From: Clitopilus passeckerianus | Lineage: Eukaryota > Basidiomycota > Agaricomycetes > Agaricales > Entolomataceae | Assembly: GCA_944990035.1 (NCBI GenBank) | Contig: CALYLX010000075.1 | Location: 124,001 to 188,000, forward strand | Reading direction: 5' to 3' | Length of the DNA: 64,000 nucleotides | Shown: positions 14,125 to 58,170 of the stretch, one piece after another | Layout: every line of letters starts with the position of its first letter | Numbering within the stretch: position 1 is the first letter of the stretch | The notes under the pieces: model-generated | What the model was told of the DNA's origin: nothing | The model's database searches: none | The model's input: the letters and a program-made list of their open reading frames with translations, nothing else | Made by a program: the position numbers and the translations under genes

Positions 14125-15271
14125 GAGAAATAGTCTTGAAAATATATACTACCCCGTAATTCTATGGATTTGCTAGTGCATGTAGCGGTTGTATTGGTGG
14201 CCCTGTTCGCTGGTGTCGGGACCGACGCGTCTTCGAATTACCAAATTTGGGACGCGTTGATGGGCAAATCCCTGGGAAACAAACTGAATTTGGACGTCAC
14301 GCTAATGCCTCCTCCTGTGCCCATTGTACTTAACTCACGCTCGCTTTGCCACTGAAACCATGAGGAGAAACGTGGAGTGGATTCTACCAGATGAATAGTA
14401 TACAGAAACGTACCCCGCCGTTCTTTTCATCACCTAAGGTTCGTGAACCAGGCGTTTATCTAAGTCTCCCTTCTGCGAGCTATTTGACTTTCAAAGATCT
14501 CTGCTTTCAACGGCCTGCCGCCGACTAGTGTTTTAGGTAAATACCACCTTTGAGGGCTCCCTCAAGGCTGAAATGACCCCAACTTGACGGCCTCAGCATT
14601 TCGTTGCGCTGAAGATTCTGACATCGCCCATCAAGCTTCAACCAGAGAAAGGAAGATTCATAGGTTTCCAGTTGTAGGAGGAACGAATCACCGTTAAGTG
14701 AGTTCTTTCTCGCCAGTCCCCGTTCTCACCCTTCTACTCTCCGTGTGACCTTCATTCCTCCCCCTCCCTCCCTCCCTCCTTTACTTCCGGTTCTTCTACT
14801 TCTGTTCCTTTCGTCTTTCTTTCCGTCGTTTTCGCTGAATAAACACTATCTTAGGATCGTCACCTAGCTATGGCAATACTTCGATGCACACTGCGAATTT
14901 GGACACAACGCCCGCCATTACTCCACGCCACAGCCTCGCAAGCATTGCCAAAGCCTGTCAATCACTGGGAGTTAGATCGTGATGAAGGTTGTGGGATTGG
15001 GATGGCCAGTAACTCATTAGCCATGAGGCCCGACTCTATGCCAATGCCTACGGCTCCTTTCTGAAGCCCAGAGACTCCTCTGTATACTTTCACTGTATTG
15101 TGTATATTCGTTCATGAATACATACATCTTGATGCAATTCGCCCGAGCTCTGGTAGAGGTGAGCCTACCACTCGAGCCGTGTCGAGGCCGAATGGATGAC
15201 AGCAACACATGATGAGCGCCCATCTACACACGCACGAAGCAATCAACAATTTACTTTCCCCATCAACCGTC
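14125..15271. other. Intergenic region between NLR B and NLR C
   Basis: No gene recognised. A pyrimidine-rich tract with repeated ccctcc units lies at about 14755-14785, ahead of C/T-rich sequence to 14830, a composition often seen in fungal promoters. Short frames at 14870 and 15112 carry no signature. Confidence 0.4.
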
Positions 15272-23456: not shown

Positions 23457-26299
23457 TTACTCTATGCATTTCTTGTCTACAATGGGCGCCTCTTGATTAT
23501 TTAACCGTAAGAAGACCCGTGTAAGAACATCTTTGGCCTCCTCTGCGTCGGTTGGGGTAGAGGCTTGCTCGAAGAGCGGAATAGCTCTTTGGAGACACGG
23601 AACGGCTTTGCTTAGATGCCCAGTTTGCTCATGGGCCAAGCCCAGGCACAACATCGCATCAGCTTGCCCATATGCGTACTTGATTTCCTTGTAGATGTTA
23701 TACGCCTCGGTCAAGGTCTCCACCGCCAGCTCCACCTTATCCTCCTTCATATAGGTCCATCCAAGAGTGTTGAGCGCATTTGCCTCCCCTAATTGATTCT
23801 TCAGTGATCGGTAGAGTTCTATTGCCTCGTTTGCAGAACTTTCCGCTCGGGAAAAGTCATTTGCCTTATTGTAAACCAAAGCCAGGTGGTATAGGCAGTT
23901 TGACTTACACTCGAGATCTTCCTCTTGCTGACAGAGCTCGAGGCCGTTTTGCAAGGAGGCTTCTGCCTCGTCAAGCTTGCCAAGCATTCGGAAGACCTCG
24001 CCGAGTAGCCAAAGGTCTCGAGCCTCCTGCCTTGAGTCTCCAACGCCTCTATGTATTTCCAGTGCCAGCTGCAGCAGCCTAACTGCTTCATCGTACTGAT
24101 CCCGTCCTCTTAGCACATCAGCGAGAGTACGAAGACACCGTCCTTTGGCAGTAGACTGCTGTGGGAGAGCATCGATTGCCTTCCGGATGATATCTGTGAC
24201 TGGAGAGCCAAGATAGTCCATCCAATCCGTGTACGAAGCACAGGCGTACGCAACGTCGTCGGTAATGTATTGGGAGGAAATGGCGTAGTTGAGCACAGCG
24301 GTAACGTTGGGGAGTTCATTGGTGAACCATGAGTACTCTGAACTCAAATTGTATTCCGGATATTTTGAGAGTCGGGTGGCGTATAGGTCGATCAGTTTCT
24401 GAGTAACGAGTTCATCAAGTGGAGGGTTCTGCATGCAGTATCTTCTGACGGGTGAAAGGAGATGAAAGTGATGGGGAGATATTTGTTTTTCGTGCGTACA
24501 CAGTGCGACGTTGCTCAGAGCCATGAGGCCGTCATGGAGATTGATAGATGGCGGAAGGAGAGATTGGAAGCTGTCTATCCAAGTCTCTTCGGATGAAAGC
24601 CCAGCTGGCAACAGAGCAATGGCAGCCAATAGATCTCTCGAGCTGGGGTTCATACGTGGGCTGAAGATGGATAGTTTGAGTGACACATCAAGCCGATATT
24701 GACGATCCGCCACCTCTGTCCCAATTGCACGTACACTTTCTTTTGTCCATCGTCGCCACAACGAGTGAGGGGTCTCCGAGCCGTCTCTAAGTAGATTCCC
24801 AACCAGAGTGACCGCTAACGGTACGCCGGAAACAGCCTCGAGGAGACTCGCTAGGGGCGCTTCTTCACTCTCGTGGAGTTTGCCTCGAGTGATATTCTTG
24901 ACAAGATCAGTCGATGCAGTCTGCGACAACGGCTGCAATGGACCGATGCGTAGCCAATGGTTGTTGCCGGGTTCCTGAGCGCCTCGCAAAGTGACGATCA
25001 GAGAAAGCTCAGGCAGAGAGTACAAGTGTCCAAGAAAGTCGTCAGCAGAACGACGATTCTCTGGTACCTCCCAAAATGTCTCAAAATTATCTATACATAT
25101 GAGTGTCGGCTCCTTCGACAAATAGTGCATGATGTGGTCTAGGATTTGTGATTGTGATTTCCGAAACCCCGCAGGAATCATGAAGGTGTTTGCGAGGGAG
25201 TTGTAGACAAGTTCGGTGGTAGAGAGGCCCTCAAAAGATAGAAACAGGCGACGAGGATACGCAGCGATGACGCCAGAGTCTCTCATGGCACTGGAGGCGA
25301 GTGTTGTCTTCCCAATTCCGCCCATTCCGAGGATCGCCACTCGCGCATTTGGGGAGGTTAAGAGTGCATGGACAATTTCCCTGCGCTGAGAATCACGCTC
25401 GAGCATGTAGACAGGGTTTGGAGGAGGGAGAGCTGAAATCCCAGTGGATGATGACCTGAATGAGATATAAATCATCTGGTACGAGATCAAGAAAGTAAGA
25501 TGATGGCCACTTACGTCCTTCTGCTATCATCTGATGTACGCCGAACGTTCATATCACTCAACGTTTGCGTCACACCCCTCTTCAGAGTAGAGTGTTAACC
25601 AACTTGACATGACCCGACCCGAGATGGGAATAGTCACCAGAATAATATCGACACCGAAACTGTCGATTCTGCGGTCAAGCTCATTCAGCTCGTCCAATCC
25701 TCGGTCGAAGAGTCGACGCAGAAACTTCCGGGTTGCCATTCGCTGTAAGACCTGATAGACTTGCTGTAATAAGCTTCGCAACTGTTAGCCACCATAGTCG
25801 GAGATATATTATTGATCTCGTGCCTCTGATAATCCTCGAGCTGTTTCAATAGCTCTTGGAATCGCTCGTCCTCCCTGCGAGCCTTCAGCCTTTTCCACTG
25901 CTCGAATACGACTTTTCCCCGACGAAGCACTTTCTCCAAGAGCTCGTTGCACCGTTTCGAATGCGCCTGAAGCTCCTACGGGGAACGTCAGAAATCGCAG
26001 ACTTATTTGATTACGGTCATCCTGACCTGCTGAATCTGAAGAAGCTGGGATATGATGCCAGCAATACCTTCGACATACGGCAGATTCCCAGCTGCGTCGG
26101 CCACGTCCTTCAACAGACTCGTAATCGTAAGTGCGAGTGAACAGGCATCTTCCACTATTGGCGTGCCAACTTCTGCGTTTCTGGAGATTAGATGCTGATG
26201 GGTTACAATTGCTGATGTCTGCAATGATGTCGACCCGTGGATGGTCGAACTGAGGGCTAGTTGATAAATTTCGCTCCCCACCTTCCTCGACAGGGACAT
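23457..26299 (-). CDS. NLR D: helical bundle - NB-ARC - TPR protein with a GC-AG intron
   Basis: Exons 26299-26027, 25975-25824, 25773-25638, 25579-25515 and 25455-23457 give 874 residues. The start MSLSRKVG aligns with NLR F. The N-terminal bundle carries PIVEDACSLALTITSLLKDV, YVEGIAGIISQLLQIQQ, HSKRCNELLEKVLRRGKVV and RGLDELNELDRRIDSF. The intron after the 152-bp exon must begin with GC (AG|GCACGA); no GT donor is available nearby. The P-loop GMGGIGKTT is at about 252-260, followed by LICIDNFETFWE, VTLRGAQEPGN, GVPLAVTLVGNLL and LLSPVRRYC. TPR pairs fill the last 230 residues (AELYRSLKNQLGEANALNTL-type repeats). It is transcribed away from NLR E. Role inferred as in the other copies. Confidence 0.9.
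25776..25823 (-). other. Intron of NLR D with a GC donor
   Basis: Exon 2 keeps the family length of 152 bp only if the intron starts GCACGA after AG. The acceptor is GCGAAG. Reading through the intron puts the conserved LLQQVYQVLQR helix out of frame. NLR F has the same non-canonical donor at the equivalent position. Confidence 0.75.
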
Positions 26300-27030
26300 G
26301 ACGGTCGTAGGTAAGTACTGGCGAACCGATGGCACCAGAATATCCTCTCTAGTCGCGTCATCAAGATCGCTTCAAACACGTGGGCGCCACGCATGTATCC
26401 CATGACCCTTTCTCAATCGTTGTTGCAATCATCCGTTATGACCATAAATAATTCTAAACTGGTCAGTTGACTAGAAGCTTTGGCGGCTTTAGTGGAATTT
26501 ATGTATCACCACAATCGTCTATTGAACGTTGCACGGTTTACTTCATATGTAATGGTCTAGCACACGAACCTCGGTAGATGAGACGAGAGATCCTTTGAAG
26601 ATACTCACCTCGCCAGTTATCTAGTGCGACCGAAGTCGTATGCTCGCTACCAGCAAACTGCCCCCGGTTCTGAGTCTCTGAGGCCTCCCTCGCTTTGTCA
26701 ACTAAGCTTCTTAGAGCACATCCCCGATGCATTATTTGTTTTGCGCGTGTAGTTCATATATCGCGAACGGAGGGTATCTGTTGGGATGCGAGTTGGCAAG
26801 AGGAGAGAAGTGAGTACTGGAGAGGTGTGATCGACTATCGGAGGTCGAATAAACCCTTGTATTATTTCATGCCCGCTAGTACAAGATCTAAATTAATAAT
26901 CTCTGTCATCCGGGTGTCTGACGACCCCAACTAGGAGAGGGAAGGCTGTGGTTACGCATGAAGGAAAAATGGCGGTGGCGACTAAAGGAGGAACCAGTCA
27001 GAATGTTGAAGCGTCGTTGAGAAAGGCGCC
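26300..27030. other. Intergenic region upstream of NLR D
   Basis: Promoter side of NLR D. No gene or repeat recognised; short frames only. Confidence 0.4.
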
Positions 27031-32651: not shown

Positions 32652-34926
32652 ATGCTTCCATCCGTGAAGTCATTATTTAACCGACGACTTAAATCAAAAC
32701 GAGACGGTAAAGCATCTGGTCCCCACTCAGGTACCAAATTGTTCGATATATACAAAAGGCGCTGCTGACATCGGTTCAAGGTGTGACGGCAACCATTGAA
32801 TCGGGCACAATCTCCGCAGGCAACGATGTCCAAATGAACATCAGCCATGTTACGCATGTTTACAATGGGTCCCAAGGAACAGGTCCCTCTGATATTACAT
32901 TGCAGTGAGTCACAAAGTGTGATCCTGTAGCACATTTCTCGACGGAATTAGGCCGGCAACGACGGGTATTCCCAGCCTCCGTCCTCGTCGCCCAGTCCAC
33001 ATGCTTGAACGAGAAGAATACCGTGAATGCATTGTGAAAGCTCTCCTTGGTTCTCCAGACGCTCGAGTTGCGATTCTCGGAATGGGCGGAATTGGCAAGA
33101 CGACACTCGCTGCGAGCGTCATGTGGGATCCGCAAGTTCTCAAGACCTACGCCAAACTGTATTTCTTGTCGTTTGAGGGTCTCACTACGCCCGATCTCGT
33201 CTATAGCTCTCTCGCCAACACATTTGAGATTCCCCAAGACGATAGGAAATCTCATGCCCGTGTCATGTCCTTTGTTATGCATCATCTAGGACAGATGCAG
33301 ACACTTATCTGTATTGACAATCTCGAGACCTTTTGGGAGGTTTCTGAGAACCGTGGCGCGGCCGATGAAATTCTAGGGCAACTATCTTCTTTGGATACTT
33401 TGGCCATCGTAGTCACGCTCCGAGGCTCTCAAGAGCCCGGAAATATTGACTGGATCCGAATCGGCCCATTGCAGCCCCTGACACAGGTAGCCTCGAATGA
33501 CCTAGTTCACAAGATCATCCGAGGCGAGGCTAGAGATGCAGAGGAGGGGTACCTAGGAAATCTCCTCGAGGCAGTTGCAGGAATACCACTTGCTGTCACT
33601 CTTATCGGAACCCTTCTGCGGGATGAGTCCGAAACACCTAAATCACTTTGGAATCGATGGTGTAGAGAAAAAACATATGCCATTGGTACCGACGTGCAAG
33701 CCCGTCAATATCGTCTTGATGTGTCCTTGCGACTGTCTGTGTTCGGCCCACGGATGAGTGACGGTTCGAGAGCGGTATTGACTGCCATTGCGCTCCTGCC
33801 TGCCGGAATGACATCCGAAGATAATTGGTTGGAAGAATACCAAGCACTCCTCCCATCATCAATCCACCTACATGAATGCCTCAGGGCCATTCAAAATACC
33901 ACACTATGTTCCCTGGATCGAAATTCAACATCCCCTCGATTTCAGCTCCTTTCGCCAATCAGACAGTTCTGCATGAAGAATTTACCGTTGGATGTTGAAG
34001 CTACTCGCAAATTAATTGACCTCTTCACCAACCGGTTATATCAAAACGAGCGCTACGATTCGAGTACCGAATACGCCTGGTTCACCAATGAGCTCACCAA
34101 CATCACCGCTATCCTCAACGTTGCACTTTCCCTCCCCTACATCACGGATTCTCTTGCGTATGCTTGCGCCACTTATACGGAATGGATGCACTATATCGGC
34201 TCTCCAACAACGGATATCATTCGTAAAGCCACCGACGCACGGCCCGAGGGTTCCAAGGCCAAAGCAAGGTGTCTTCAGTCGCACGCTTACGTGCTGTCAC
34301 GTCAGGCCCAGTATGAAGAAGCCATGAGCCTATTAATGGAGGCACTGACCATTCACAGGGAAGTCGGGGACCTGGTGGAGGAGGGTCGGGACTTGTTTGA
34401 GCTTGGAGAAATTTATACAGTGCTCAAACGGTTTGATGACGCCGAAGGAGCTCTCAATAACACTTTGAGGCTCTACAAAGAACAAGAAGACCGGATAGGC
34501 GAAGCAAACTGTTTGCGCGCCCTGGCCGGGCTGTATAACGATATGGACAAATTTTCCGAAGCCGAAAGTGCAGCGAAGCAAGCAATTGAAATTTATCGCT
34601 CAATAGATAATCCGCTGGGAGAAGTAAATGCCCTCAACACGCTGGGAACGGTGTATGCCAGTCAGGGGCATTTGGAGCTGGAAATAGAGACCTTTGGCGA
34701 AGCCAGGCAAATCGCCAGAGAGATCAAGTACACCTATGGTCAGGGAGCTGCAACGCGCTATCTTGGACTGGCTCATGAGGATGCGGGAAGCCGCAAAGAA
34801 GCTATTTCTTGTCTTCAAGAAGCCATTATGCTTTATGACAAGGCTTCATACCCCGCATATGCGCAGCATGCCAGAGATGAGCTCTCCTGGGTGCTCTCAA
34901 AGCTTGAGTCTGAGAACACACCGTAA
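32652..34926 (+). CDS. NLR E: amyloid-like motif - NB-ARC - TPR protein
   Basis: Exons 32652-32706, 32781-32904 and 32952-34926 give 717 residues. The start lies in a good context (ctccaccATGC), and the same start and splice sites occur in NLR G, which supports the model over a start at the inner ATG 33001. There is no helical bundle. The first 60 residues are a basic stretch (SLFNRRLKSKRDG) followed by ISAGNDVQMNISHVTHVYNG at 29-48, a short alternating hydrophobic/Asn-rich segment of the kind found in fungal amyloid signalling motifs. The P-loop GMGGIGKTT is at 103-111, with LICIDNLETFWE, VTLRGSQEPGN, GIPLAVTLIGTLL and LLSPIRQFC following. TPR pairs run from about residue 470 to 700. Predicted role: sensor that seeds a partner through its N-terminal motif (inference). 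Confidence 0.88.
32819..32880 (+). other. Candidate amyloid motif of NLR E
   Basis: Encodes GNDVQMNISHVTHVYNG with a trailing SQG. It alternates hydrophobic and polar residues with Asn/Asp and Gly at the ends. The same block with few changes is present in NLR G and, broken, before the relic at 56690. The amyloid assignment is by resemblance only. Confidence 0.5.
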
Positions 34927-35211
34927 TAGCACACCAGGTATATACCATCTTCTTGCAACGGATCGTAATTACCGTTAATTATGGATCACACAGGTATAGC
35001 TCGTCCAAAAGCCAAGATGTATATATTTTTGAAGTGTACCTTGTATAACGGATACCTTAGGGGTTACAGTTCATGCAGATATAATGGTACCAGCTCCTTC
35101 AAGGAACGAACCCTCGGCCTCATTATATACCGATTATACCGTACTACCCTAGACCATGTTCTGGCCAATTCTTTTTGCTTGTCTTGTCATCTCGGGAATT
35201 GAGACGGATGT
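34927..35211 (+). repeat. Conserved 3' flank of NLR E
   Basis: After the stop, the block taacggataccttaggggtt and a following agctccttcaaggaacgaac match the downstream sequence of NLRs F (about 42050-42125) and G (about 49440-49520). The copies were therefore duplicated with their 3' flanks. Confidence 0.65.
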
Positions 35212-37560
35212 TCGATTAAAGGATACTGTGATCCCACTCGCTGCTTTCAAAGACATAGTAACTCAGGAGTTGACGATCGGAGGCGAAGGGATGAACGATA
35301 ATTGAATTAGAAGAAAACGAGGCTGTTAGGAGGCAGGGGGTGCCATGTACAGAATGGGTCTGGAAGGCATCTTGCCAGATAACCATATCGATTGTACGAT
35401 TTATTTGCATTAGTACAGTACTTTGAGATAAACGAGGTCCATATTCAGATAACACCAGCAGCATCACCCTCCCAGCATGCGTTCTCAACCGATGTATCCC
35501 AATGCCTCGCCATTTCTGTTCTGGACGAACTTGATCACGACCTCCAGCGAAACATTATCATCGGCAAGGTCTTGAGACTAGGCCCTGCTAGAAGGTGTGT
35601 CAATGTTTGCGGGAGCAGATGGACGACCTGGCGAGGATAGTTTGTTAGCATGGGTGCATGGAGATGAGGAAACGAAGGGTAATATACATACATCGTTTTC
35701 GGGGTCTATGACGGTGTCTATCTTCAAGCGTTGGTTGTAGGTGTTCCTGGTGCTGGGGCCGCACCTGGGTAGGACACCTTCATTCACTTTACGAATGATC
35801 TAGGCGGGAGTGACAGAAATGTCCTAAGGTTCACCAGCAAGTGTAAAGGGATTCCGGGGTCGAGGAGCAGGGCCTGTCAGAATAGAGTTAGCATGTATCC
35901 ATGAATATGTCGAACGGCAAAGGTACGTACACCTTGGGTAAGGTGAGGTCGGGACAGTCCTTCTTGATGGCTAACCACCCGATTTCTTCAGGGCGATAGC
36001 ACAGGTGAGCCAGCTATTGGGAGGTGCATCTTCGTTTGCCGTACAACGCAGCCAGCGGGAGGGTAGTGGAACAACCTGTAGGCGACCGGTTAGTGGACGT
36101 TTAGTATGAGAGCTAAACGTAAAGGTTAACCTACCACTGAAAATATAGCTGTGTCGTATTGCTGGGGAATGTCACTAACGGTTGCTTCATGAATTCCTCA
36201 ACGAGATGTACAGCAACGTGCACGACTTTACGATGCTGACCATCCGAGAATCGTATCGAACGGTGGTGGGGTGAATGGATCCAAACAGTATGCTGTCGAG
36301 ACGAACATGAGTTTGAGCTTGAGGTTGCAAAAAAGAAACGACAACGAACCTGGTCGTGGTGCGTATTCACCCACAACTGCCCTATTTCTCCGCGCAGGTC
36401 TAGACGGAGCTGAGTCCTGACGATCTAAAGCATGAGAGTGAGCGTTTGCAAGTAATGAAAGAGCAGTACCGGGATACTTACCGCCGTTCACTAGCGAGAG
36501 TATCCTGTAGCATAGAAGCGACGGTTGGACAGACAAGAGCGGCTGTGGTCAGCAGTAAAGCTCAATATTATGCCAAGCATAGTGCCTTTGATGTGGGACC
36601 GAAAGATTGAGGCACTGGATACAGGACGCCGTATTGAAGGCGGATGGTAGGCTGCTGGGGAACAAAGAGATGAGAGCGAGCTTCAGTCGGGGGCCAGGGA
36701 TAAGCTTACCTCGTTGCAAGCCCGCACACGCCCGGCGTTCGCTTCGTTGATGAGGTATTTGGGGTGCACATCTGCCGCCAAGGGGGACTTCCAGCATGGT
36801 CTCCGTCCGGTTGCCAGGTAGAATCCTTAATTGGCCAGAATATCATTAATACCGGGGAGACGCTCTGTGTTGAAGAGCTCATGCGACGAAGAATTCGTTG
36901 ATGAGGATTAGAGCAAACGAGAGCGCCGTCGGTTGGTCGAGGAGGGTGAGGCGTCCAGGCCTGAGGGCCGAATGACAAGTCGGGCCGGTCGGTGTTCAGA
37001 TAGCTCCAGTAGAGAGAGAAGTACCTCTATGCCTCCACATAGCATAGCAATAGCAAGTATCAGCTTCTGCTTAGGTGGCAAAACGAGGAGCACTAAAGAC
37101 TGTCAGCTGGTTGGTGACAACGGAGGCTGAGAGAGCGATGGGATGGGGGATGGCTTGTTTGTGCTTGATGTTTGCCCAAGACGATGCCAAGCAACGCGCT
37201 CCAGAAACACCAGCAACAGCCAAATTGAGTACGCGTTATTGTGCACTGGCCTGTGGAACAAACAATGGAATCAGCTCGAATCAAGCCGTCCATCCTTCTC
37301 CCCTGCCCAGGATATCTGCAAACACGAAATGTACCTGGATCTTCTTCCAACCTTCCTCCCACCAGCGCGAAGCTTTGTTGCTTCATTCTCGTGCCCGTAT
37401 CGTCAGTATTCTCGGTGGCCGCGGAAAAGGAACATTCTCATGTTATGGAATTGAAGGATGATTGTCGTTTCAACTGCTTAGGCGTCAACTCAGACAGATC
37501 ACTGATGCTTGCGCTTTTTTATTTCAAGTGACGGTAGGGGCCTTACAGCGGTTGACTGCC
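35212..37560 (-). pseudogene. Decayed multi-exon gene, copy 2 (unidentified)
   Basis: Paralogous to the stretch at 27.0-28.9 kb: matching blocks at 35570-35710, 35936-35960, 36180-36360 and 36640-36710. On the minus strand, exon-like patches are LAIKKDCPDLTLPK ending at a gtgtac donor (about 35934) and ADVHPKYLINEANAGRVRAC ending near a gtaagc donor (about 36712). The frames are broken in between. I cannot identify the protein. Confidence 0.45.
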
Positions 37561-39143
37561 CCCATTGCCTCTCTCTCTCACGGCGCCTGCTGTTTCAACG
37601 CTGGCATTCAGGTTGATGCTTGAACCTAAACATGGCGACGTTTGTGGATGCCGACGCTGTGGTTGTCCTTCGTAAGCATAATCTCCTCTAATTCACTCCG
37701 CACCGACACGACCCTATTCACCCTTCATCTCGGATACCATTCTTCCCCCTTCCTAGCCATTTGCTGACTCGGCTACTTTCTCTCAGACCAAAGCTACCAC
37801 CAAAAACGAAGTGAATATCGTCTTCTGGGCTGTCGACCCCGCCGCCATGTATACGCCGATTCTCGTATGGTCTGAACATAACGTTACCCTCCAATACTGA
37901 GGAAGGCACGCAAGATCTCGCTTTCTCATCCACTGAGGTTCGTCTTTTCCGCGGTTCCTTGCTAGAAACGTCTGTGACCAGAGGTTCGTTAGTTTGCCTG
38001 CGTCCTTTGGATTCTAACATGCTCGTCTATCTCCTATACTGCACCTTCTGGCTTAACGAACTATTGTCGCAACACATCAGCTGGTGGGTAATGACGGCAT
38101 AAGGGAGATGAAGCTGTGAGCAGGATTGTTGGCGAGGGGGATGCTCAGTTTATGTGAACGGTATGGCATCGTCTTAGTGTTTGATTTTTTCACCGAAACC
38201 CACGTTTTAGCTGATTTTAGCGTCCTCAGGCGCGGTTTCGGAACCTCATTGTACAGAAGCATGGCAGGAATCGAGTCCGTAGCGCCAAGGGAGAGCATTC
38301 ACGTGGATATGAGGACCGGTTTCCGTAAGTTCTTCCCCTGGGCAGATGCCTACCCCGATGCTCCTGTATTCTACATCCATCCCTCCAAACTCACATCTAT
38401 ATTCAATAATTTCCTCCATTGCTAACTTCGTCTTTTTCTTCTTCTAGACCGAGGGCAAGGTGGCTACATGTGGTCCCATAATCCGACAACCGCAACTCGA
38501 TATATGCTAATAGCTAGCCCATCCGATACTGGTGCCTTCACAACGAGAGTAGTCAATGGCGTTGCTTTCTCGCGATTGATATTTTGAGAGGCTCGTAAGT
38601 TCATACGCTTCTGGCCCATCTGGTTTCGAAATAGCTGAGGCACAACGGCTTTGGCCAGCAGCCACGCCGGAGAAAAGTTTCCCGTGGCGGTACCCTAGGC
38701 TGTGACAGCTGACGGCACGATCATGAGCAGCAAGTTCGCGCTTGTCGACCCCACCACGCTCGAAATGGATCAACCTTGAGATATCAATCCCCGTTGGAAC
38801 TGTTGGATGCCAAGCCCGAGAAACATGACGCAGCGTGTTAGAGGAAGAATTTCAAGGGAATTGTGGAGTAAGCTTCTTCTATAAAATGATGTCAGATTGG
38901 CATTGAAGCGTTTCACCAAGGATTTCAGCAGATACAGATATCCATTCTGTGTAGAATTAATTGCCTTCAATAAGGAAAGTTGCCTGTACCGGTGATCTGA
39001 CAGTCCGCATCAGTTCTCTATAAATTCACCGACAGAGCGCCTATTTCTGGCCATGCGATGCAAGCACAGCATGCATGTTGTCGTTCTGATGGAACGAGAC
39101 ACGCGACCACGTTTCATCTCCTGTACGCTCTCCTTTATCCACC
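37561..39143 (+). pseudogene. Decayed multi-exon sequence upstream of NLR F
   Basis: Exon-like patches include one at 37632 opening MATFVDADAVVVL before a gtaagc donor, one after an acceptor at 37789 reading TKATTKNEVNIVFWAVDP, and one at about 38180-38320 holding VLADFSVLRRGFGTSLYRS. Stops and frame breaks separate them. The position relative to NLR F and the GFxxSxxR motif match the sequence before NLRs E and G. From 38560 to 39143 nothing is recognised except the promoter side of NLR F. Confidence 0.4.
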
Positions 39144-41960
39144 ATGTCCCTAAAGAAGATGGGCAACCCATTTCGCCAGCTAGTGTTAACCTCGACGATC
39201 CATGGATCTTCGTTGCCTCAGACGTCAGCTGTTGAAGGTACTCATCAACTTGGACCCGGAAATCCCTCTGCGCATCGTCCGATTGTGGAGGATGCCACCT
39301 CCCTAGCGCTCACGATAACTAGTATATTGAAGGATGTCGCGAAGACCACTGAGAGGCTTCCGTATGTCGAGGGAATTGCTGGAATGGTAAACCAGCTACT
39401 TCAAATCCGTCAGGTTCGCTCACTGTACCATTATATCGGCGACCTCACTCATTTCCCTTCATGTAGGAGCTCCAGGCACATTCGAAACGGTGTAAAGAAA
39501 TCTTGGAGAAGGTCCTTCGAAGCGGAAAGGTGGTCGTTGAGCAATGCGCAATGTTGAAAGGCTATAGGGAAGAAAGCAGGCTTGAACCCTTCTTCGAATG
39601 GCTAGAGGCGTATCACGGGCACGTATCCATTTTCATCTCGACTGCTAGCGATAATACTGAGGAACTCACGCAGCTTATTGAAAGAAGTCTATCGTGTCTT
39701 GCAAACGATGACAAAACGGAGCTTCCTCAATCGGCTCGTCAATCGGGGGCTGGATGAGCTTAATGAGCTTGACCGCAAGATTGAGAGCTTTGGGAGGAAT
39801 GTCGATTCAGTGGGTTATGTTCTCTTCATGAGCCCCCAGGGTTGACTCAAATTCAAACAGATTGGGATCGCGCAAATATTGGCTATAGTGGCCCCACATG
39901 AGACCATTCAGAACGCCCCCGAGTACGGAAACCTCTGATCGTTGCCTTTGCTCACCTTGAGCTGACGCAACTCTAGGTGTAGAGCACCTTCGATCAGTCC
40001 TGCGTCCCTTCTTCCCCCGGGACCAATCCGGGTACTGGAGCGTGATGACGAAAGGGAGAAGATCGTTTCTACTCTTCTATCATCTTCGAATGCGAGAATT
40101 GTGATCCTCGGAATGGGCGGCATTGGGAAAACGACGCTAGCATGTAGCGCTATGCGAGATCCCAGAGTTATAGAAGCCTATCCCCGTCAACTATTCATAT
40201 CATTCGAAGGTCTTTCCACCGCGGAGCTTGTCTATAATTTCCTCGCAAACACCTTCAATATTCCCACTGAGTCTCGAAAGTCGAATGCTCAGGTTCTCGA
40301 GCACGTTGGGCACATCTTGGGACACGAGAAGACAGTCATCTGCATTGACAATTTCGAGACATTTTGGGAGGTCCCAAAGAACCGCCGCGATGCAGATGAT
40401 CTCCTCGGGCAGGTAGCCTTGATTTCAACGCTTGCCCTCATTGTCACAATTCGGGGTATTCAAGGCCCTGGAACTGTCGCTTGGACTCGAGTGGGCCCCT
40501 TGCCACCGTTAACACAGGCCGCGTCTAATGACCTTGTTCACGAAATCACGCAGGGCGAACTTGGAGACAGTGACTCAGATCCGCTACGGAACCTGCTGGC
40601 TGCTGTAGCTGGGGTCCCACTTGCCGTCACCCTGGTAGGAAACCTGTTGCGAGATGGATCAGAAACCCCAAACTCGCTCTGGCACCGATGGAATCAGGAA
40701 AGCACACACGCGATTGGAACGGATGTAGAGGATCGTCAATATCGGCTTGATGTATCGCTGCGGCTCTCCGTATTTGGCCCACGGATGAACGATGCCTCCA
40801 GAGCGGTATTGGCTGCAATTGCTCTCCTTCCTGGCGGCCTCTCTGCTGAAGAGAGCTGGTTGGATGGCTTTCAAAAGCTCCTCCCCCCCTCACTTCACCT
40901 ACGTGATTGCCTTAGATCTGTCCAAAATACGGCCCTCTGTTCACTCGATAGACAGTCATCTCCCCCTCGATACCAGCTCCTTTCTCCGATAAGACAGTTC
41001 TGCATAAAGAAGCCATCCATAGACGTCGAGGTTACTCACAAATTGATAGACCTCTACACCAACCGATTATACGAAAACGAGGAATACGATTCAAGCACTG
41101 AATACACCTGGTTCACCAATGAGCTCTCCAACATCACCGCTATCCTCAACTCTGCACTTTCCCTCCCCTACGTCACCGACTCCCTTGCATATGCTTGCGA
41201 CAATTACACCCGGTGGATGCGTTATCTTGGGTCTCCAACGGCGGATATCATTTGTAAAGCCACCAACGCACAGCCCGAGGGTTCCAAGGCGAAAGCAATC
41301 TGTCTTCAGTCGCACGCTTACGTGCTGTCACGTCAGGATCAGGTTGAAGAAGCCGCGACCCTGTTACAGGAGGCATTATCCATTCACAGGGATGTTGGGG
41401 ACCTCGAGGAGGAGGCTTGGGACTTGAGGGAGCTTGGGAATATTTATTCCCAGCTCGAACGGCTTGACGATGCGGAGGGAGCTCTCAATGATGCTTTGAA
41501 GCTCTACCAAGAACAGGAACACCAGACTGGCGAAGCAAACTGTTTACAATCCCTGGCCAAGGTCTATAACGACGTGGACAAATTGTCCCAAGCTGAAAGT
41601 TCTGCGAAGAAAGCACTTGAGCTATCTCGCTCGCTAGGTAATCGTCTGGGAGAGTTAAATGCACTTAACATACTGGGATGGGTATACAGGAGGCAGGGGA
41701 AGGTGGAGCTGGCAATAGAGACCTTGGATGCTGCCAAGCAAAGCAGCACAGAGATCAATTACACGATTGGCCAGGCTGAAGCAATTCGCTTTCTTGGCTT
41801 GGCTCATGAGGATGCTGGAAGGCCCGATCAAGCTGCTTGTTGCCTTCGAGAAGCTATTGCGCTTTTTGAAAGGGGTTCATCTCCCGTCGATGTACAGCTG
41901 GCCAGAGACGACCTCTCCTACGTGCTCTCAAAGCTAGAGCCTAAGGGTGGACTCTTATAA
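39144..41960 (+). CDS. NLR F: helical bundle - NB-ARC - TPR protein, chimeric
   Basis: Exons 39144-39413, 39467-39618, 39674-39809, 39861-39922 and 39977-41960 give 867 residues. The start (tccaccATGTCC) is well placed. The front resembles NLR D: PIVEDATSLALTITSILKDV, YVEGIAGMVNQLLQIRQ and RGLDELNELDRKIESF, and exon 2 ends at the same GC donor (GG|GCACGT). The P-loop GMGGIGKTT is at about 252-260, with VICIDNFETFWE, VTIRGIQGPG, GVPLAVTLVGNLL and LLSPIRQFC following. From LLSPIRQFC onward the sequence follows NLRs E and G (NAQPEGSKAKA, LQSHAYVLSRQ, KLYQEQEHQTGEANC), as does the 3' flank. This suggests recombination between copies with different N-termini. Role inferred as for the other NLRs. 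Confidence 0.9.
39619..39673 (+). other. Intron of NLR F with a GC donor
   Basis: The intron runs from GCACGT to CACGCAG. A GT donor exists three bases later inside the exon-side codons, but using it puts the conserved LLKEVYRVLQ helix out of frame. The GC choice keeps the 152-bp exon and the frame. Confidence 0.75.
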
Positions 41961-44500
41961 CACATGTATGCACCATCTTCTTTGAACCGATAGTCACTGC
42001 TTTTACTTACAAGTCACGCAGAAATGCCGGACTTGACATGTACCTCGTATAACGGATGCCCTTGGGATTACAACTCGCATACATATTGTAGCACCAATTT
42101 CTTCGAAAAATGAACCTTCGAGCTCATTCTCCGGTGCTCTTTCGCAACTTCTGCATCACTCCCTCATTTGTTCTGCTTGTCGCACTTGCTTAGCCCGCTC
42201 TTTTCACCTTACCTTTCATACGTCCCCGTCTTCGTGTAAAACCTGACATCTGTCAACACGACTTCACTAAGACATCGTTCTTGACAGCCTTTACCTTTGT
42301 GGATAATAAACTGACCCTCGGCGTCTTGACGCGCTCGTCTCAGTTATCCAAAGAAGCTGTGAAGGCGAGGGCGAGCCGGGAGGAATAATTAGGGCCCCTT
42401 ATTGTACCGCCACAGCCCTGAGCTCGTATATACAGCTCCTCAAAGAAGAGTAGAAAGAGATTTAATTGGAGGACACTCGTCTACTTAGTCTTCGGGAAAA
42501 GGTGTTTGCAAGAGAGGGTTCCTGTGAACCTCAACTCGAGTGAAAGCTGGTAAAGAACGGAGAAAAGTCGATAATGTAACGTACGTGGAGCACAGAGAAA
42601 GACGAAAGTTCGAGATACTAAACCCGGTGATGCGAAGCGCGTGAAATGAAGCTAAAGGTGCGTGAAACAGAAAACTCTATCCACACAACACTAACACTCA
42701 AACCACACACAACACGGGTTCGATGGGGCTTATATGAACCAATAGACACCGTAGATACACTTAGCACGAGCGTAGTATAGCCGTGAAATGTAGGAGGTAG
42801 TTCAAAATCGAAGATGTTGAATGCAAAACAAATAAACTCGCGCGCACGCAAGTGAAATCCTTCAATATAACTCAAATGACCTTAGAACTCGCAGTTTCTT
42901 TGGTAGAAGCGCTCGCAAATAGGAATCTAAAGCAGTCACAACACAGGTAATGCTCGAATTCGGTCTCTCGATTACTTGGGGGATTTTCCCGCTCATGCTA
43001 CAGTACTTATACAAAATGATTGCGTCTACAATAGGAAATAAATAGAATATTCTGGAAGTCGGCAGGTGGGTTCTTTCATGTGAATGCTCCGGTAAAACAT
43101 CCATCATGAGTATGAAAACCTGTTGTGAGGCCCAATACTTGAGAAATGGAGAGAAACCTTGGAGATTGATGGACTGGTGCCTATCGAGACGAGGATCCTG
43201 ATTGGTTGGAGACATAGCATGACTCAGAGAAACTAAGAATAGCTTTTCCTTGGCATCTAAGCCGGTAAAATCGCAAGTTCACGTGTATTTATGGCGCAAT
43301 ACACATTTCGAGGGGGTTTCCAGATGATCTTCCCTCTATACCGGGCCGGCAAGGTGAAGTACCATCATTTCTTGTCTCCGATAAATCCGTTGCCCATATG
43401 GAATCGCAGGCAATCAATGCCGAAGCTTCTCCGGATGAATCGGACCTTAACACCGCGCACCAGGAATTCGTCTCCTTGTTTTGTCAAGCTTTGAGAGTTT
43501 CTCGTGTTGATCCTGGACAGTTCGGAGCTCACTTCCAGGCTTCGTAGGTCCAATAGCATTCATTAGGTAGAGATGTAATACACGTAAAATACACAAAATG
43601 CGCAAATTTAGATGTATTAACGGCAGGGCCGTGTCACCGGCCTCAAATACGGATACCGGCTCACCTTGAAAGCATGCAAGAGCAAGGAGACACATGTGTC
43701 TATTCACGTAAGTTACCCATTTCGAGATTTGAGATTTTGGATTCGGGCTGGTCCAGCGGTCTAACTCACGAATTGGCAGGCTTTCCCTAGGCGTGCTTCA
43801 ACTTGACCTGGACCTGTGGTAACTTCGCCACGCTAAGTCGATGACACACGGACATATATATTTTCTGAAGCCTGGAAACGGGCTTGAAAGCTGAGCGAAC
43901 TCGTGGGGTTCGATGAACGGGCGTACTTACTTAAGTTTGCGGGAGGTTGACTTGGGCTTGATCAACGTCCAACCATCCGCTCGGATTCGTTCGTGACGCG
44001 GCAGATCCAAGATGTTGGCGTGGCCCAATTCGGCTAGCTACCACATATGGAGCCGACGGTGCGGGCATGGTCGTGAAGATCAGACTCATTGGTAGTGCTT
44101 TGTGTACTCTTGAATGATTGTTGCTTCGTACAGTCAGGTATGTCTTGGAGACTCTTCACACATATGTTCAAGCCTTATCATGATCGCGTGGGTGAATTGA
44201 TGTGAGAGAAGGAGGCGGCGAATTACTGGATTGGTCCACGCGTTGTTGTACATCGGCATTTGGAACAAACAAAGCACACAGATGCGTGCCTGAATCGGTT
44301 GTGTCGTTCATTTCTCCTTCACCAAGCCTCTTGCAGTTGTCACTTCCATCTTGCCATAACCTTGATTGCCGCAAGAGCAGGACACTCGCCATATGTCATA
44401 TGGACGAAGGTATGTCTGTTTTACGCAGAATCATTTCGGGCAAGCTGCTGACACGGGTCATTTTGCCTTAGCCAATATACGATGCATCTGACGTCAACAT
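41961..44500. other. Region between NLR F and the sequence upstream of NLR G
   Basis: The first 170 bp repeat the NLR 3' flank. From about 42200 to 44500 there are only short frames on both strands with no family signature. The 117-codon minus-strand frame at 42862-43215 is unremarkable. Confidence 0.4.
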
Positions 44501-47047
44501 CGACATCCACGGTCTTTAGATTTGAGCCCGAGGTGGTCAGAGGAATTAGTTAGTGTCCCTCCCATCCTCCACCGTCCTGCCTTGCTGCCCCTATTCTCGC
44601 GGTTTTCTGTCTCTTCGCCGAGAACTACCTACTGACGTGCCTCGTACCCTTCCACTAGATCAACCATATCATCCACTCTTCTATATCGAGCTCAACTACA
44701 CCAGCTGTCGTCGCGGCACGCCAGCCGTAGCTGACGATGATGTACGAAGACGAGGTGGTGAGTAGGATACCACTTGGATTTCAATTCCTTCGCTATAGTT
44801 CACAACCCCATACGTTACGCCGTTCTCTTACCTCTTTTCCCTTGCATTCTCTATGCCCTCCTTCCGTTCTTCTTTACACCGTTACTCTCGCTGCCCCATC
44901 TATATCATCCCTCTTATCGTTCATCACCAACGCTCTCAACATCCAATGTCCCAATCTTGCCCATGTTTCACTTCAGACCTCGTTTTGAGCAGCTTACTAA
45001 CCATTCTCTTCCCCCCGGGTGTTTTCCCCTAAGTTATCGACCAAGAAATACACCACTATCGCCCATTCGTATCTAACGCACCAAACCCGACCCGGGGATC
45101 AATTTCCGAGTCTGTATACCAGTATATCACGTTGCCGAAGGTCAAGAATAGGCCCAAAACATCGGTTGTAGCTACACGATCGTAAAGGTCCGCTCTCTTA
45201 TCCTGGTGCTTCGGAATGAAACCTGACCACTATTCATTTTGACTAGCTGTACGCCCCTGTCTGGAAGATTTGCGGCCAGCAGTAGTTGCTCGACGACGTC
45301 GTGAACAGTATGTCATACCCTTTCTCCCTGCCTTTCTGACAGCCATCACCAATTTAAAATCCTCCAGAATGGCAGGTGGTTAGCGCGAGTGTCAGCATCC
45401 TGCCAAATTTCCTCGACCTTTGCTTCGCTTCCTGGGGGGTATGCCCTCTTCTCAGTGCTATCTCGTTCTTCGTAACCTGATGCATCGCTGTCATTTTCAG
45501 GATTATGTGGTGCTTGAACCCGCCATCCAGGACTAGCGGGAACGGATATTCACGAATACGGCGACTCTGGCTGGAGTAGTTTCCGTAAGTTCTGTCCTCC
45601 ATTCGCGCTTTTCGTACTTTTTCCGTTCGAAATCATGTCACGAACATTTCCGAGTCTTCTACGTATTCTTATCCTTTTTACAGATCAACGAGGAGGGTGC
45701 TTGCGATTTGATTCACATGATCCCGGCCTCGTTCCCGAGCGTTTGGCGGCGGGAAAGATCATGAGTGACAACTCTGTATCGATGCACCGAGTGGTTCGTG
45801 ATTCCCGCGTAATCTGGTATTTACATCTCGAACTGACGCTATTTTAGGTCCACAGGCGTCGGGAACGTATGTTGACCAGATGACTCGATGTATGAATGCT
45901 GTGTGGTGCAGCGGGGAAGGCGAAAGAAGAGGAGGGTGGGATGAATGCACTGTGTCTCGTAAGTTCTCCTTTGCTTTTTTGTTCTTTTAGTGGGTAGTTG
46001 CTAATGCGTGATTCAGGTCTCGATCTCGACCCGTTTTCCCTGCGTATGAGGTCGCTAGTGGACTGAAACGCAATTCTCAACTTTCATATTCCGTTCAAGG
46101 CGAGATGCTGCCTATGCTACCAATAGGCACCCCTCACTTCGACAAGGGCTTATCGCGGCTTGTCGTGCCTTGCTCTGGATCGCGGATGCTGACTACGTTA
46201 TATAGAGGTTTGTCATTGTCTCAACGCTCGGTACATACGCTATAGAGGACTGCTACCTCGGTATGCTGGGCGTTGGCATGGGAGAAGTAACGCCTGGGTT
46301 CGTCGCCGCTTGAGATAAGAATAAGGGCGAGTGTATTGAGCTTTCTCTTCTAGGCGTCAATTGAGGTTGGTTGATTGCTTATCTGCCCCAGACGATAGCT
46401 GATGGATAGTGCAGATTCTCTTCAGGCGTCAACCATGGCTGTGTCTCTGCAATAGAGGTCGGCGGTTTCTCTTTCGGAGTCTCAATCTACAGAGGTTCGT
46501 CTGTTGTTGGGCGTACTTTATTTCACCATCTTGACGACTTTCTTAGGAACAGCTGGTTCACACGTTTAGGCCTTCCTCCCTTCAAGACTCGGTGACTTCA
46601 GATCGGAAACTCGTGCTCAAAAGAACTCTGATTGTCTCCAGTGTCAAACATTAGCTGCGCGTCACATATCCTTAACCCTGTCTAATTTCATCCGGTTCCC
46701 ACATGTCTATGTCATATTTGATACCTTTTCTGCCTTTGAGTTTCCGTCATACCTCCATGTACACATTTGCTTTGCCTTTCCGGTATAGCCACTTTGACAT
46801 TAGCAGACGGGTTATGAGGACACTCCTGCTGTGATATGATCACCTTGTCGTATGAAATCCAAATTTCCTTGTTCCTTGCTTCAATCCGGGCGTCAGAGTA
46901 TAACGGGCGCTTCCCGCCAACCTGGCAGGTGGCTGACAAGGATCATATGACAGTCAATGTCGCTTCTGGCGCTCATCGATAATTCGAGCATTTTGCTTTC
47001 GCTCCATCTATTTAGAATACACAAGCCAACCGTAAAGTGGTTCCACC
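44501..47047 (+). pseudogene. Decayed multi-exon sequence upstream of NLR G
   Basis: Patches between plausible splice sites include YVVLEPAIQD near 45508 followed by a stop, QINEEGACDLIHMIPASFPS after an acceptor at 45683, YVDQMTRCMNAVWC near 45869, and EVGGFSFGVSIYRG at 46455-46496 ahead of a gttcgt donor. A gacgatagctgatg block at 46392 recurs at 54670. The first part aligns with the sequence right of the transposon at 31170. It looks like the least damaged member of the decayed family that precedes NLRs E, F and G. No function can be assigned. Confidence 0.4.
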
Positions 47048-49329
47048 ATGCTTCCAGCCATCAATTCATTATTCAACCGGCAACCTAAATCACAATGGGA
47101 TGGTAAAGCGCCTGGTTCACATTCGAGTACCAAACCGTGGTCGAAAAATAAGAAGGGCTACTCACACTGTTCACAGATGTCGCCGCGACAATCGGATCCA
47201 ACACAATCTCCGCAGGAAACGATGTCCAAATGACCATCAGCAACGTTACGCACATCTACCATGCTCCCCAAGGAGCGAGTTTCTCGGATGATTCAGCCCA
47301 GTGAGTTACCAAAGTTGATGTTTTCGGAGCACTTCTCAACGGAGTCAGGCCCAAAACAAGGGATATGCCCAACCTCCGTCCCTCCCGTCCCGTTCACATG
47401 CTCGAGCGTGATACCTACCGTGAATGCATCGTCAAGGCTCTCCTCAACTCTCCGGACACTAGAGTCGCGATTCTTGGAATGGGCGGTATCGGGAAGACTA
47501 CACTCGCTGCTAGCGTCATGTGGGATCCGCAGATTCTCAAGGCTTATCCCAAGCAATATTTCCTGTCTTTTGAGGGTCTTTCCACTCCTGAACTCGCCTA
47601 TGGTTCCCTGGCCAACACATTTGAGATTCCACAAGATGATAGGAAATCCCATACACGAGTCATGTTTTGCATTATGCAATATCTGGCTCAGGCGCAGACA
47701 CTTCTGTGTATCGATAACTTTGAGACTTTTTGGGAAGCACCTGCAAATCGACGGGCAGCGGACGAGCTTCTCAATCAGCTGTCTTCGCAGAGCACCCTTG
47801 CACTTATCGTCACCCTTCGAGGCTCTCAGGAGCCTGGAAATATTGACTGGCTGCGAATCGGTCCCCTTCGGCCACTAACACAGGCAGCTTCGAATGATCT
47901 CGTTCAAAAGATTACTCGAGGTACGGCAGTCGATGGGGAGGAAGAATATCTTTCAAGTCTCCTCAATGCTGTCGCCGGAGTTCCTTTGGCGGTAACGCTG
48001 ATCGGGAACCTTCTCAGAGATTCAGAGGACTCAGAGACTCCGCGCTCGCTCTGGCACCGATGGACAAAGGAGAGTACGCAAGCAATTGGTATGGATGTCC
48101 CAGACCGTCAATATCAGCTCGACGTGTCACTTAGACTGTCCGTGTATGGGCCACGGATGAGCGACGACTCCAGAGCCATCTTGGCAGCAATTGCTGTGCT
48201 TCCTGCTGGGCTCTCCTCGGAAGAGAGTTGGTTGGACAAATATCAAGGCCTACTTTTACCTGGCGTCAACATACGGAATTGCCTCAGAGCATTGAGTAAT
48301 ACAGCACTCTGCTCATTCGATAAATCGACCTCCCCCCCTCGACACCAACTCCTTTCTCCAGTACGACAGTTCTGCCTACAGCATTTACCACTCGACCATC
48401 TGGCCATTCAAAAGCTGATCGATCTGTACATATCCAGACTGGGTGTATATACCGAGTTCGATTCACGGTCTAAATACACCTGGTTCATCAACGAGCTCAC
48501 CAACACCACTGCTATCCTCAACTTCGCATTTTCCCACCCCTACATCGCCGACTCTCTTGCATATGCTTGCAGCACTTACACCCGATGGATGGATTATCTT
48601 GGGTCTCCAACAACAGATATCATTCGTAAAGCCACCAACGCACAGCCCGAGGGTTCCAAGGCGAAAGCAAAATGTCTTCAGTCGCATGCTTACGTTCTGA
48701 GGCGTCAAGGTCAGAATGAAGAAGCCATAAACCTATTACAGGTGGCATTGGCCATTCACAGGGATGTCGGGGACCCGGTGGAGGAGGCTTGGGACTTGGG
48801 GGAGCTTGGTGACATTTATAGGGCGCTTGGACGGCTTGACGACGCCGAGGGAGCTCTCAATACTGGTGTGAAGCTCTACCAAGAACAAGAACACCGACAG
48901 GGTGAAGCAAACTGTCGACAATCCCTGGCCGACCTTTATGATGACATGGAAAAACTCTCTGAGGCTGAAAGTTTTGCGAAGCAAGCAATTGAGCTTTATC
49001 GCTCGATAGGTGATCGACTGGGAGAAGCAAATGCCCTCAACACGCTAGGATGGGTGCACAGGAAGCAGGGGCAGTTGGAGCTGGTTATAGAGACCTTGGG
49101 CAACTCCAAGCGGATCAGTACAGAGCTCAACTACCCCTATGGTCAGGCTACAGCAATGCGCTATCTTGGCCTGGCTCATGAGGATGCCGAAGATCTCGAT
49201 CAAGCTATTTCTTGTCTTCAAGAAGCTATTACGCTTTCTGAAAAGGCTTCATCTCCGAGTGCTACACAGAACGCCAGAAATGACCTCTCCAGGGTTCTCT
49301 CCAAGTTAGAGTCTGAACGCAGACAGTGA
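47048..49329 (+). CDS. NLR G: amyloid-like motif - NB-ARC - TPR protein
   Basis: Exons 47048-47102, 47177-47300 and 47349-49329 give 719 residues. Exons 1 and 2 are 55 and 124 bp, identical in length and phase to NLR E. The N-terminus reads MLPAINSLFNRQPKS, then ISAGNDVQMTISNVTHIYHA at residues 29-48. There is no helical bundle. The P-loop GMGGIGKTT is at 103-111, followed by LLCIDNFETFWE, VTLRGSQEPGN, GVPLAVTLIGNLL and LLSPVRQFC. The TPR region is close to those of E and F. The conserved second copy of the motif, with the same flanking exon structure, argues that it is functional. Predicted role: NB-ARC sensor that would nucleate a motif-bearing partner; no such partner is visible in the window. 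Confidence 0.88.
47215..47276 (+). other. Candidate amyloid motif of NLR G
   Basis: Encodes GNDVQMTISNVTHIYHA. Differences from NLR E are conservative (V to I, N to T or H), keeping the alternation of hydrophobic and polar residues. Confidence 0.5.
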
Positions 49330-51664: not shown

Positions 51665-51913
51665 TTTCAAGCCGTGGTGAAGATGTAAACACTCGCACGG
51701 ATAACGGTATACAGCTGCACGTTGGGCGGAAATCGACAATCCGTAGCTGCAGCACTAGTACGTGTACTTACGTTCTAACTCACTCCAGATGTTCAATAGT
51801 GAGAACAATTGAAAAGTCATCATTGGGAGTAAGAATGTTATACATGATCAAATTGTACAAAAGTGAACTCGTAATAGGCCTTTGCGTCCAACCCAGGTCC
51901 GATTTGCCGGGTT

Positions 51914-53023: not shown

Positions 53024-53395
53024 GATGGTAGTTGGACTAGAAGAAGGGTCGAGAGAGGGCAAAATATTCAAACACGATCCCCTGGCACCCGGTAGACCTT
53101 TCATAGTTTATGGCCTTAAGGTGCTGCCGAGAAACGTAGTGAACATTGGCAAGTGACATATCACATTCTGAATGTCATTGTCAACATTTGGGATCAAGGA
53201 AGGAGCTCATATCCGAATAGAAGCTTAGATAAAAACCAGCATCTATCCTCTTCAACCCAGAGTCGTCTGGGAAGGGGATAATAAGACGGTGGGTATGTCA
53301 GATTGCCTGAAGAGCGGTAGGATACCGGGCGAATATTGACGACACTTCAACTTCAACAACAGAAAGATTCTATACTGCTTCTCGATCGCAGACGT
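53024..53395. other. Upstream region of the peroxidase gene
   Basis: Promoter side of the minus-strand peroxidase. No gene or repeat recognised. Confidence 0.4.
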
Positions 53396-56689: not shown

Positions 56690-58170
56690 TAGAACCCGCA
56701 GGAGCAGCCACTGATCCTTGGAATAGAGGTAATAATTTGCGCCGTTCAACTCTACTACAATTTCAACAGGGAATGATATCCGCATGCACATTTTGAACCT
56801 GACTACGAATATCTACTATGGTTTCTGAGGATATCTCGGCAGAGACGAGGCCTTGGTAAGTGCATTCCTCCCATGGAAATGAAAGATATCTAAACGGCGT
56901 AGGGCTTTCAAGGGCAAATTGAATCACTCCCTTCCTCTCCTCGTCCTGTCCATATTCTCGAACCTGATGCAGACTATAAAAGCATAATTACCGCTCTGTT
57001 CCAATCTCCCGGTACCAGGGTCGCAATTCTCTTCTCGGGATGGGAGGGTTCAGGAAGACAACGTTAGCCTACCGCATCATGTGGGATTTGCGAACAATTG
57101 ACGCCCATCCTCGGCGGTATTCCCTGCCCTTGGAGGGGCTTACTACCACCGATTGTTCACAGTTGCCTTGCACATACATTCATGTAAATCCGAAGCACAA
57201 ATCCTGGCATCCATCAAACGTGACCTTGGGGAAGAAACGACCCTTATTTGCATCGATAGCTTCGAAACGTTTTGGGAGGTGCCCAAGAATCGCCGCGGTG
57301 CTGATGAGCTTCTCGGGCATTTATCGTCTCTCCACTCACTTGGTTTACTGGTCACACTTCGAGGCTCTCAAGAGTTAGGGACTAGGAATATCCGGTGGTT
57401 ACAAATTGGACCGTTGGAGCCATTAACACCGGATGCATCGAACGATCTCGTGGAAGTGATCGCTAGAGGGAAGGTCTTTCACATGGAGGAGCGGGAAGTT
57501 CTCAACAACTTTTCGGAGGCTGTGGCGGGGATCCCACTCGCGGTGACCTTGATCGGAACTCTGCTGAGGGATGGATCAGAGACTCCTACGTCTCTGTGGC
57601 ACCCATTGGAAACGGAAAAGCGTTCGCCGACGGGATCGATTGGATGTGTCCCTCAATGTTTCCATCTTCGGCCCACTCTTCAAGCCCCCGTTCCACTGAC
57701 GATGAACTTGCGGAACTGCATCGGAGATACCTCTCCCCGCCCATTGGACGAGAAAACCTCGTCGAGTGGATTCCAAAATGCTTTCTCCAATTCGACAATT
57801 TTGCTTACAAACCCTATCTTTGAACACGGAGATCATACACAGACTCATCGGCCTCTATGATGCTCGACCGTCTAAATCTACTAGCTTCGACTCGACTTCG
57901 GAGTACGCCTGGTTTCCCACCGAGGTCACGAATTTCACCCATCTCCGCAATCTCGCATTTGCGCTCCAGTACATCACGAACGACCTTGATCACGCTCTTC
58001 GGTCTCCTCCCGAGCGACCTACCACTCAGCGTTTCTTCGCTCGTCCGTTACTAGGCCGTTCCTATGGGGCAACAAATTTTCCGGAGAAAGGAAGATATTC
58101 TTCGTCTTTTGGGCAAGTGCAGCAGCGTCAAGAACAATTGCGGTGCTTAGAATCAATTTATGCACCTATA
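56690..58170 (+). pseudogene. NLR pseudogene of the amyloid-motif type
   Basis: After an acceptor at 56769 the sequence reads GNDIRMHILNLTTNIYYGF and then hits a stop, matching the motif exon of NLRs E and G. A gtaagt donor and an acceptor near 56903 precede SSPRPVHILEPDADYKSII, the junction found in E and G. One extra T before the P-loop shifts the frame, and the P-loop itself reads GMGGFRKTT with the invariant second Gly replaced. Later segments (CIDSFETFWEVPKNRRGAD; VTLRGSQELG; GIPLAVTLIGTLL; LSPIRQFCLQTL) are readable in different frames with deletions between. It ends without a TPR region near 58170. Clearly non-functional. Confidence 0.85.

Follow-up and report, generated by a model that had tools for sequence, protein, structure and literature searches.

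A short N-terminal module of NLR-type receptors in Clitopilus passeckerianus as a candidate HRAM-like amyloid signalling motif

How do receptors of one gene cluster signal if some of them carry a helical bundle at the N-terminus and others only a short module in the same place? The question is raised by a window of 64,000 nucleotides from the basidiomycete Clitopilus passeckerianus (contig CALYLX010000075.1, here C75, positions 124,001 to 188,000 of the forward strand; coordinates given without a contig are those of the window), in which two NLR-type receptors, E and G, have a conserved module within their first 68 residues. We lean, if only slightly, towards the view that this module is a receptor-side amyloid signalling motif similar to the HET-s-related amyloid motif (HRAM), which would template a separate cell-death protein. 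An amyloid function is the best available explanation because of the residue pattern, the constraint and the position of the module.

The N-terminal module and its conserved core

Gene models, in which splice sites were set by eye, give E and G as intact proteins with a common three-exon plan, a short N-terminal module being mounted on a shared NB-ARC/TPR chassis, as had been proposed in the original prediction from the letters alone. E contains both parts that define an NLR, NB-ARC (Pfam, 35.6 bits at a cut-off of 23.5) and C-terminal repeats (TPR_12, 72.2 bits at a cut-off of 30.1). The features concerned are:

32652..32730, + strand: exon 1 of E, 26-residue basic leader MLPSVKSLFNRRLKSKRDGKASGPHS (gene model)
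32781..32904, + strand: exon 2 of E, motif exon, core at 32810-32863 (residues 37-54)
32952..34926, + strand: exon 3 of E, NB-ARC at residues 93-299, then TPR repeats
47048..47126, + strand: exon 1 of G, leader (gene model)
47177..47300, + strand: exon 2 of G, motif exon, core at 47206-47259
47349..49329, + strand: exon 3 of G, NB-ARC and TPR
56736..56825, + strand: third motif copy of the window, with an interrupted frame and followed by a broken NB-ARC at 56903-57857

Exon 2 of either gene codes for about 41 residues including the core, ISAGNDVQM(N/T)IS(H/N)VTH(V/I)Y. The motif had been placed at residues 32-46; GNDVQM begins at residue 40 and the core spans residues 37-54. By eye, intron 1 measures 50 nucleotides in E versus 48 nucleotides in the allele of E on a second contig, C150.

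The motif is not confined to two NLRs, as had been thought. Protein and pattern searches of the genome (64.8 Mb in 160 contigs, copy counts being lower bounds) found at least 11 copies: E, G, eight on C150, named here by their position in kb (e.g. c71), and the broken copy at 56736. All 11 lie directly upstream of an NB-ARC frame; the motif frame is open in ten and one is a pseudogene. When the window, C150:1-180000 and further pieces were searched with the profile (beyond 180 kb, C150 was covered at 180001-186500 and in the surroundings of the 227-kb copy), the 11 copies each scored at least 46 bits and the next-best match 10.9 bits. Predicted starts, again with splice sites set by eye, lead straight into the module in c111, c71, c87 and c227 (MS[AS][HN][SP]), and c57 starts with MSDV, so that in these five copies the module begins at most about 7 residues after the start codon. 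The basic leader of E (32652-32730) and G (47048-47126), which is SLFNRRxKSK-like, is found in none of these five.

The core of the motif is under purifying selection at the protein level. The claim that it is better conserved than its surroundings held: E and G are identical at 15 of 18 core positions versus 6 of 10 and 5 of 14 flanking positions, and among the nine distinct copies (c105 excluded) amino-acid divergence is 0.287 in the core versus 0.634 in the flanks, a contrast equalled in 7 of 100000 column permutations. Among contiguous windows of the core's length, the best one begins exactly at the core. Pooled over pairs of the ten copies, which are not independent, the proportions of nonsynonymous and synonymous differences (pN/pS) are 0.176/0.699 in the core, 0.327/0.717 in the N-terminal flank and 0.464/0.750 in the C-terminal flank; synonymous change is thus near saturation in every part of exon 2 (pS 0.70-0.75). 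For the NB domain the values are 0.193/0.701 (8 copies), and the core is therefore constrained about as tightly as the NB domain. It could be imagined that the motif exon is a relic of the loss of the bundle that drifts neutrally, since several copies are broken elsewhere (the 56736 copy, and c57, c105 and c227, whose NB-ARC frames are split). Neutral substitution was also what would have spoken against the original prediction, and both the contrast between core and flanks and a core pN/pS of about 0.25 at near-saturated synonymous divergence argue against it, making a drifting relic hardly credible.

Likeness to HRAM and the search for a partner

What kind of motif could be preserved in this way? 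According to PMC4518210, HRAMs have hydrophobic residues at positions 5, 8, 10, 16 and 18 (sometimes T at 10), favour R or K at 15, always have G at 19, carry large polar residues at positions 3 and 20, and form one arch of two and one of three polar residues. If the glycine of the HIGN sequence is taken as position 19, the residues in the copies with that sequence fall as follows: position 8 is I or M, 10 is A, 11-13 are GND, 15 is R, 16 is M or V, 18 is I and 20 is N. Of the ten open copies, five (c111, c71, c87, c227 and c57) conform to a rule for positions 8-20, sharing with HRAM the hydrophobic residues at 8, 16 and 18, the polar residues at 11-13, R15, G19 and the large polar residue at 20; like HRAM on receptors, where it is the r0 of NWD2-type NLRs, the motif occurs as a single copy and, by eye, has few charged residues. 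Shuffles of the nine copies satisfy the rule in 0 to 28 of 200000 cases, and no other match occurs in 455560 residues of six-frame open reading frames or among 37 NLR-like proteins (26182 residues), a specificity that is weaker than it looks because the pattern, which permits either A or T at 10 and takes no account of positions 3 and 5, where the copies fail, was drawn up after the motif had been seen. A relaxed pattern is matched by all nine distinct copies but also by about 0.1 to 0.5% of shuffles. The Pfam family HET-s_218-289 (PF11558), which according to PMC4518210 matches only 38 of 155 HRAM sequences, matches c71 with E 0.029 and 14.8 bits, below its cut-off of 32.2; none of 40 shuffles of c71 matches it, and 2 of 40 match unrelated families.

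Several observations weigh against an HRAM-like amyloid motif, and the first of them concern the sequence itself. The arch glycine is present in c111, c71, c87, c227, c57 and c62, but E and G, which retain the HRAM spacing, have S at 19 and Q instead of R at 15, c161 has H at 19, and c62 departs from the pattern at position 20. In the ungapped register, read by eye, the copies have S, A or T at position 5, a hydrophobic rather than a polar residue at position 3 and, without exception, A at position 10. PF11558 is matched by one of ten copies only, below cut-off, and has no match in the genome, the profile having matched no control genome either. An AlphaFold2 monomer of the motif shows no structure (mean predicted local distance difference test score 56), a result that does not discriminate. 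The failure of E and G at the glycine lowers the probability that their module is an HRAM, not that it works like one; with serine in place of the arch glycine, E and G may represent a separate class of specificity, or else a weakened one. A search of the PDB with the motif profile returned one match (E 0.76), which was judged to be chance.

The second group of observations on that side comes from the search for a motif-bearing HeLo- or MLKL-like partner, which had been expected and was not found in the HeLo genes, among the bundle genes or genome-wide. The HeLo family (PF14479) has six matches at four loci, four near-copies with a long C-terminal tail (C136:50123, C52:171958, C51:3333 and C135:263861; stretches L035-L038, L044 and L045). 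No motif occurs in the DNA read at these four loci, and at the two where the long tails were read further the best motif score was 0.8 bits. In the two HeLo stretches scanned with Pfam no family beyond HeLo exceeded its cut-off. In two of the copies, both no more than 5 kb from a contig end, the HeLo match is split. The search for bundles gave 39 exon matches, of which 30 candidates were scored and grouped into 16 genes; 15 of these run into NB-ARC, and the remaining one, L042 (C75:119500-122200, about 2-3 kb to the left of the window), stands alone, codes for about 178 residues and lacks the motif. Its bundle matches MLKL_N with E 0.005, below cut-off, and it is possibly a naked executor or a truncated NLR; as a motif-bearing effector it was rejected, as the gene stops after the bundle. 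Genome-wide motif searches returned the NLR copies and, where read, chance matches, while five two-mismatch matches on other contigs were not read; the matches at C106:392392 and C26:508559, the latter within a ubiquilin-like gene, were put down to chance after reading. Goodbye (PF17109) has no match in the genome and none in the control genomes, and PigL_N (PF17111) has none in the genome, three controls being matched below cut-off. A HeLo-type partner whose C-terminus carries a matching double motif was thus not found by searches that a diverged partner would escape. Nor was the motif found in 37 NLR-like outside relatives searched with the profile or in two region searches; this absence is no proof, because the collection is thin in fungi. 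The best outside relative is 48% identical, and the named best matches are Agaricomycetes (Mycena, Pholiota).

Most likely the partner of the motif-bearing NLRs is either missing or too diverged to be seen; clustering of HRAM receptors and partners is described as common but not systematic (PMC4518210). If the module is an amyloid motif, it would fold as a beta-arch and template itself, the modules would stack upon oligomerisation of the receptor, and the stack would then template a separate cell-death protein, a partner that would lie outside of what could be searched. The amyloid part of the original prediction therefore retains the HRAM-like pattern of the closest paralogues and the constraint on the core, and lacks the HeLo partner to be templated.

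Alternatively, the module could be a homotypic oligomerisation or docking element, through which motif-bearing NLRs acting as sensors signal to bundle-bearing NLRs acting as helpers without any amyloid templating. The two types have their chassis and cluster in common, the genes read include no motif-bearing effector, and the bundle-NLRs examined no copy of the motif; but docking leaves unexplained both the HRAM residue pattern of five copies and why the peptide core rather than mere length is constrained, and we regard it as unlikely, if deserving of serious weight. Slightly less credible again is a short linear motif of another kind (a targeting, membrane or protein-binding peptide, for example), with the likeness to HRAM arising by chance. 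Such a peptide would suit the basic leader that precedes the module in E and G, the weak match of one copy in ten to PF11558 and the lack of the glycine in the E/G branch and c161; it is opposed by the strict pattern without a chance match in the 455560 residues, an argument that is itself weakened by the pattern having been written post hoc.

Whether an amyloid motif of this kind would be undescribed is doubtful, because a large class of short N-terminal amyloid-like motifs in Agaricomycetes was already predicted in 2022 (Wojciechowski, 2022; PMC9815663). That paper reports 689 NLR N-termini with the motifs NLR05/08/22/29/44, nearly all from basidiomycetes, with the motif of the NLR05/22 group usually at the very terminus. 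It describes the motif, in Gymnopus, as three hydrophobic residues plus a G[DN] pair and proposes a basidiomycetal variety or homologue of HRAM. Its Table 1 lists no motif-bearing neighbours or effectors for these motifs; possible genome-wide pairs are given for Moniliophthora and Fibularhizoctonia and HRAM-like pairs for Sphaerobolus. Amyloid signalling controlled by NLRs is presented there as known from Ascomycota and bacteria and as an in-silico prediction in Basidiomycota. As far as the published description allows comparison, the IGN-type copies fit this meta-family, being short, often terminal motifs on Agaricomycete NLRs, and the five copies with the module close to the start codon resemble the NLR05/22 group, whereas the G[DN] pair is missing from E and G at this place. 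The fungal sigma, PP (RHIM-like) and PUASM motifs are likewise short N-terminal motifs on the receptor side; unlike for these, no linked effector was found here, and unlike in PP no G-hydrophobic-Q-hydrophobic-G sequence is seen by eye.

Bundle-type receptors, probable haplotypes and the direction of the proposed swap

What stands in the place of the module in the other receptors? All five further NLRs of the window with a full-length NB frame have helical bundle exons upstream, the NLR fragments at 9445 and 50558 being excluded from this count:

39144..41960, + strand: NLR F, the contrast gene between E and G, bundle exons at about 39144-39842, then NB-ARC/TPR (NB reading frame 39966-41960)
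4692..8048, - strand: bundle-type NLR (NB reading frame 4692-7169)
11275..14124, + strand: bundle-type NLR (NB reading frame 12127-14124)
15200..18158, + strand: bundle-type NLR (NB reading frame 16128-18158)
23457..26371, - strand: bundle-type NLR (NB reading frame 23457-25523)

The helical bundle in these five was correctly foreseen; its designation as a death domain was not borne out, as no death domain was matched in Pfam and weak matches to RPW8 and MLKL_N appeared instead. The bundle of F matches RPW8 (E 1.1e-4) and that of the 12127 gene MLKL_N (E 0.02), both below cut-off, and the bundles of the 23457 and 16128 genes match neither. MLKL_N reached E 1.3e-6 among matches to three of eight bundle members, this match being that of an outside relative because it is not among the four members from this genome. 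In the PDB, MLKL chains were found with the bundle at E 0.71 only, after 36 other sequences, and a single-sequence query with F returned no MLKL. F is 30-31% identical to two outside relatives. The bundle may be called weakly MLKL-like, and by position and the identity of F it would fit the BaMLKL class as described in PMC9815663; receptors of that class have the NB-ARC/TPR chassis and the cluster in common with the motif-NLRs but carry an executor-type bundle in cis in the motif's place.

The tree was built from the first 185 NB residues of 9 motif rows, 12 bundle rows and 2 outside proteins, leaving aside c227, the 56736 copy and a C125 NLR, which are split or fragmentary, and two NLRs at C150:180-186 kb, which were fetched later. 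All motif-NLRs fall on one side of a branch (support 90/93; 92% of 200 bootstrap trees), and motif versus bundle requires one change, as low a number occurring in 0 of 500 shuffles. Since in the midpoint-drawn tree the bundle-NLRs surround the motif clade, a single replacement is suggested, in which an ancestral bundle was exchanged once for the motif. The direction is conditional, because the root is placed without a true outgroup, two long branches meet there, and an outside row with a short N-terminus and neither motif nor bundle (P0001) falls among the bundle rows.

C150 runs collinear with the window: identity is 92-93% in stretches around E and three bundle-NLRs and 83% over 35411-41296, which includes F. 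A ubiquilin-like control gene is present in exactly two copies on other contigs, with 91% identity between them. The most parsimonious interpretation is that both haplotypes are contained in the assembly. Overall, the window at 9800-54000 and C150:52800-180000 appear as alleles of 82-93% identity, and C150 has large contig-specific insertions of NLR copies. In the C150 allele of E the NB frame is broken. For G, C150:1-180000 offers no close allele (at best 74-75% identity over the NB part, and 81% over 835 bases at the 3' end), and the counterpart of c57 is fragmentary: window 50579-53920 is 82.5% identical to the c57 stretch, and the NLR fragment at 50558 has neither the NB start nor the motif. 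The content of motif-NLRs is therefore unequal between C75 and C150. A C-terminal NLR fragment at 9445-10449 has a C150 counterpart (C150:180001-181362) with an open NB-ARC frame and is seemingly truncated on the window contig.

Implications for signalling in the cluster

A more far-reaching scenario, which we hold to be distinctly doubtful, combines these observations: the clade would have traded its executor bundle for a private amyloid tag, the tag would have split into an arch-glycine IGN and a serine ISN/ISH class whose copy numbers differ between the two nuclear haplotypes of a single individual, and the tag would recruit bundle-bearing sister receptors rather than a dedicated HeLo effector. 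If this were true, such a receptor-to-receptor amyloid relay could also act in self/non-self recognition.

Independent of that scenario, the E/G class without the glycine offers a natural test of the requirements of the HRAM arch. Moreover, one cluster presents both solutions on one chassis, an executor in cis and a putative tag, with alleles on apparent haplotypes; an exchange of about 40 residues would therefore suffice to test the swap.

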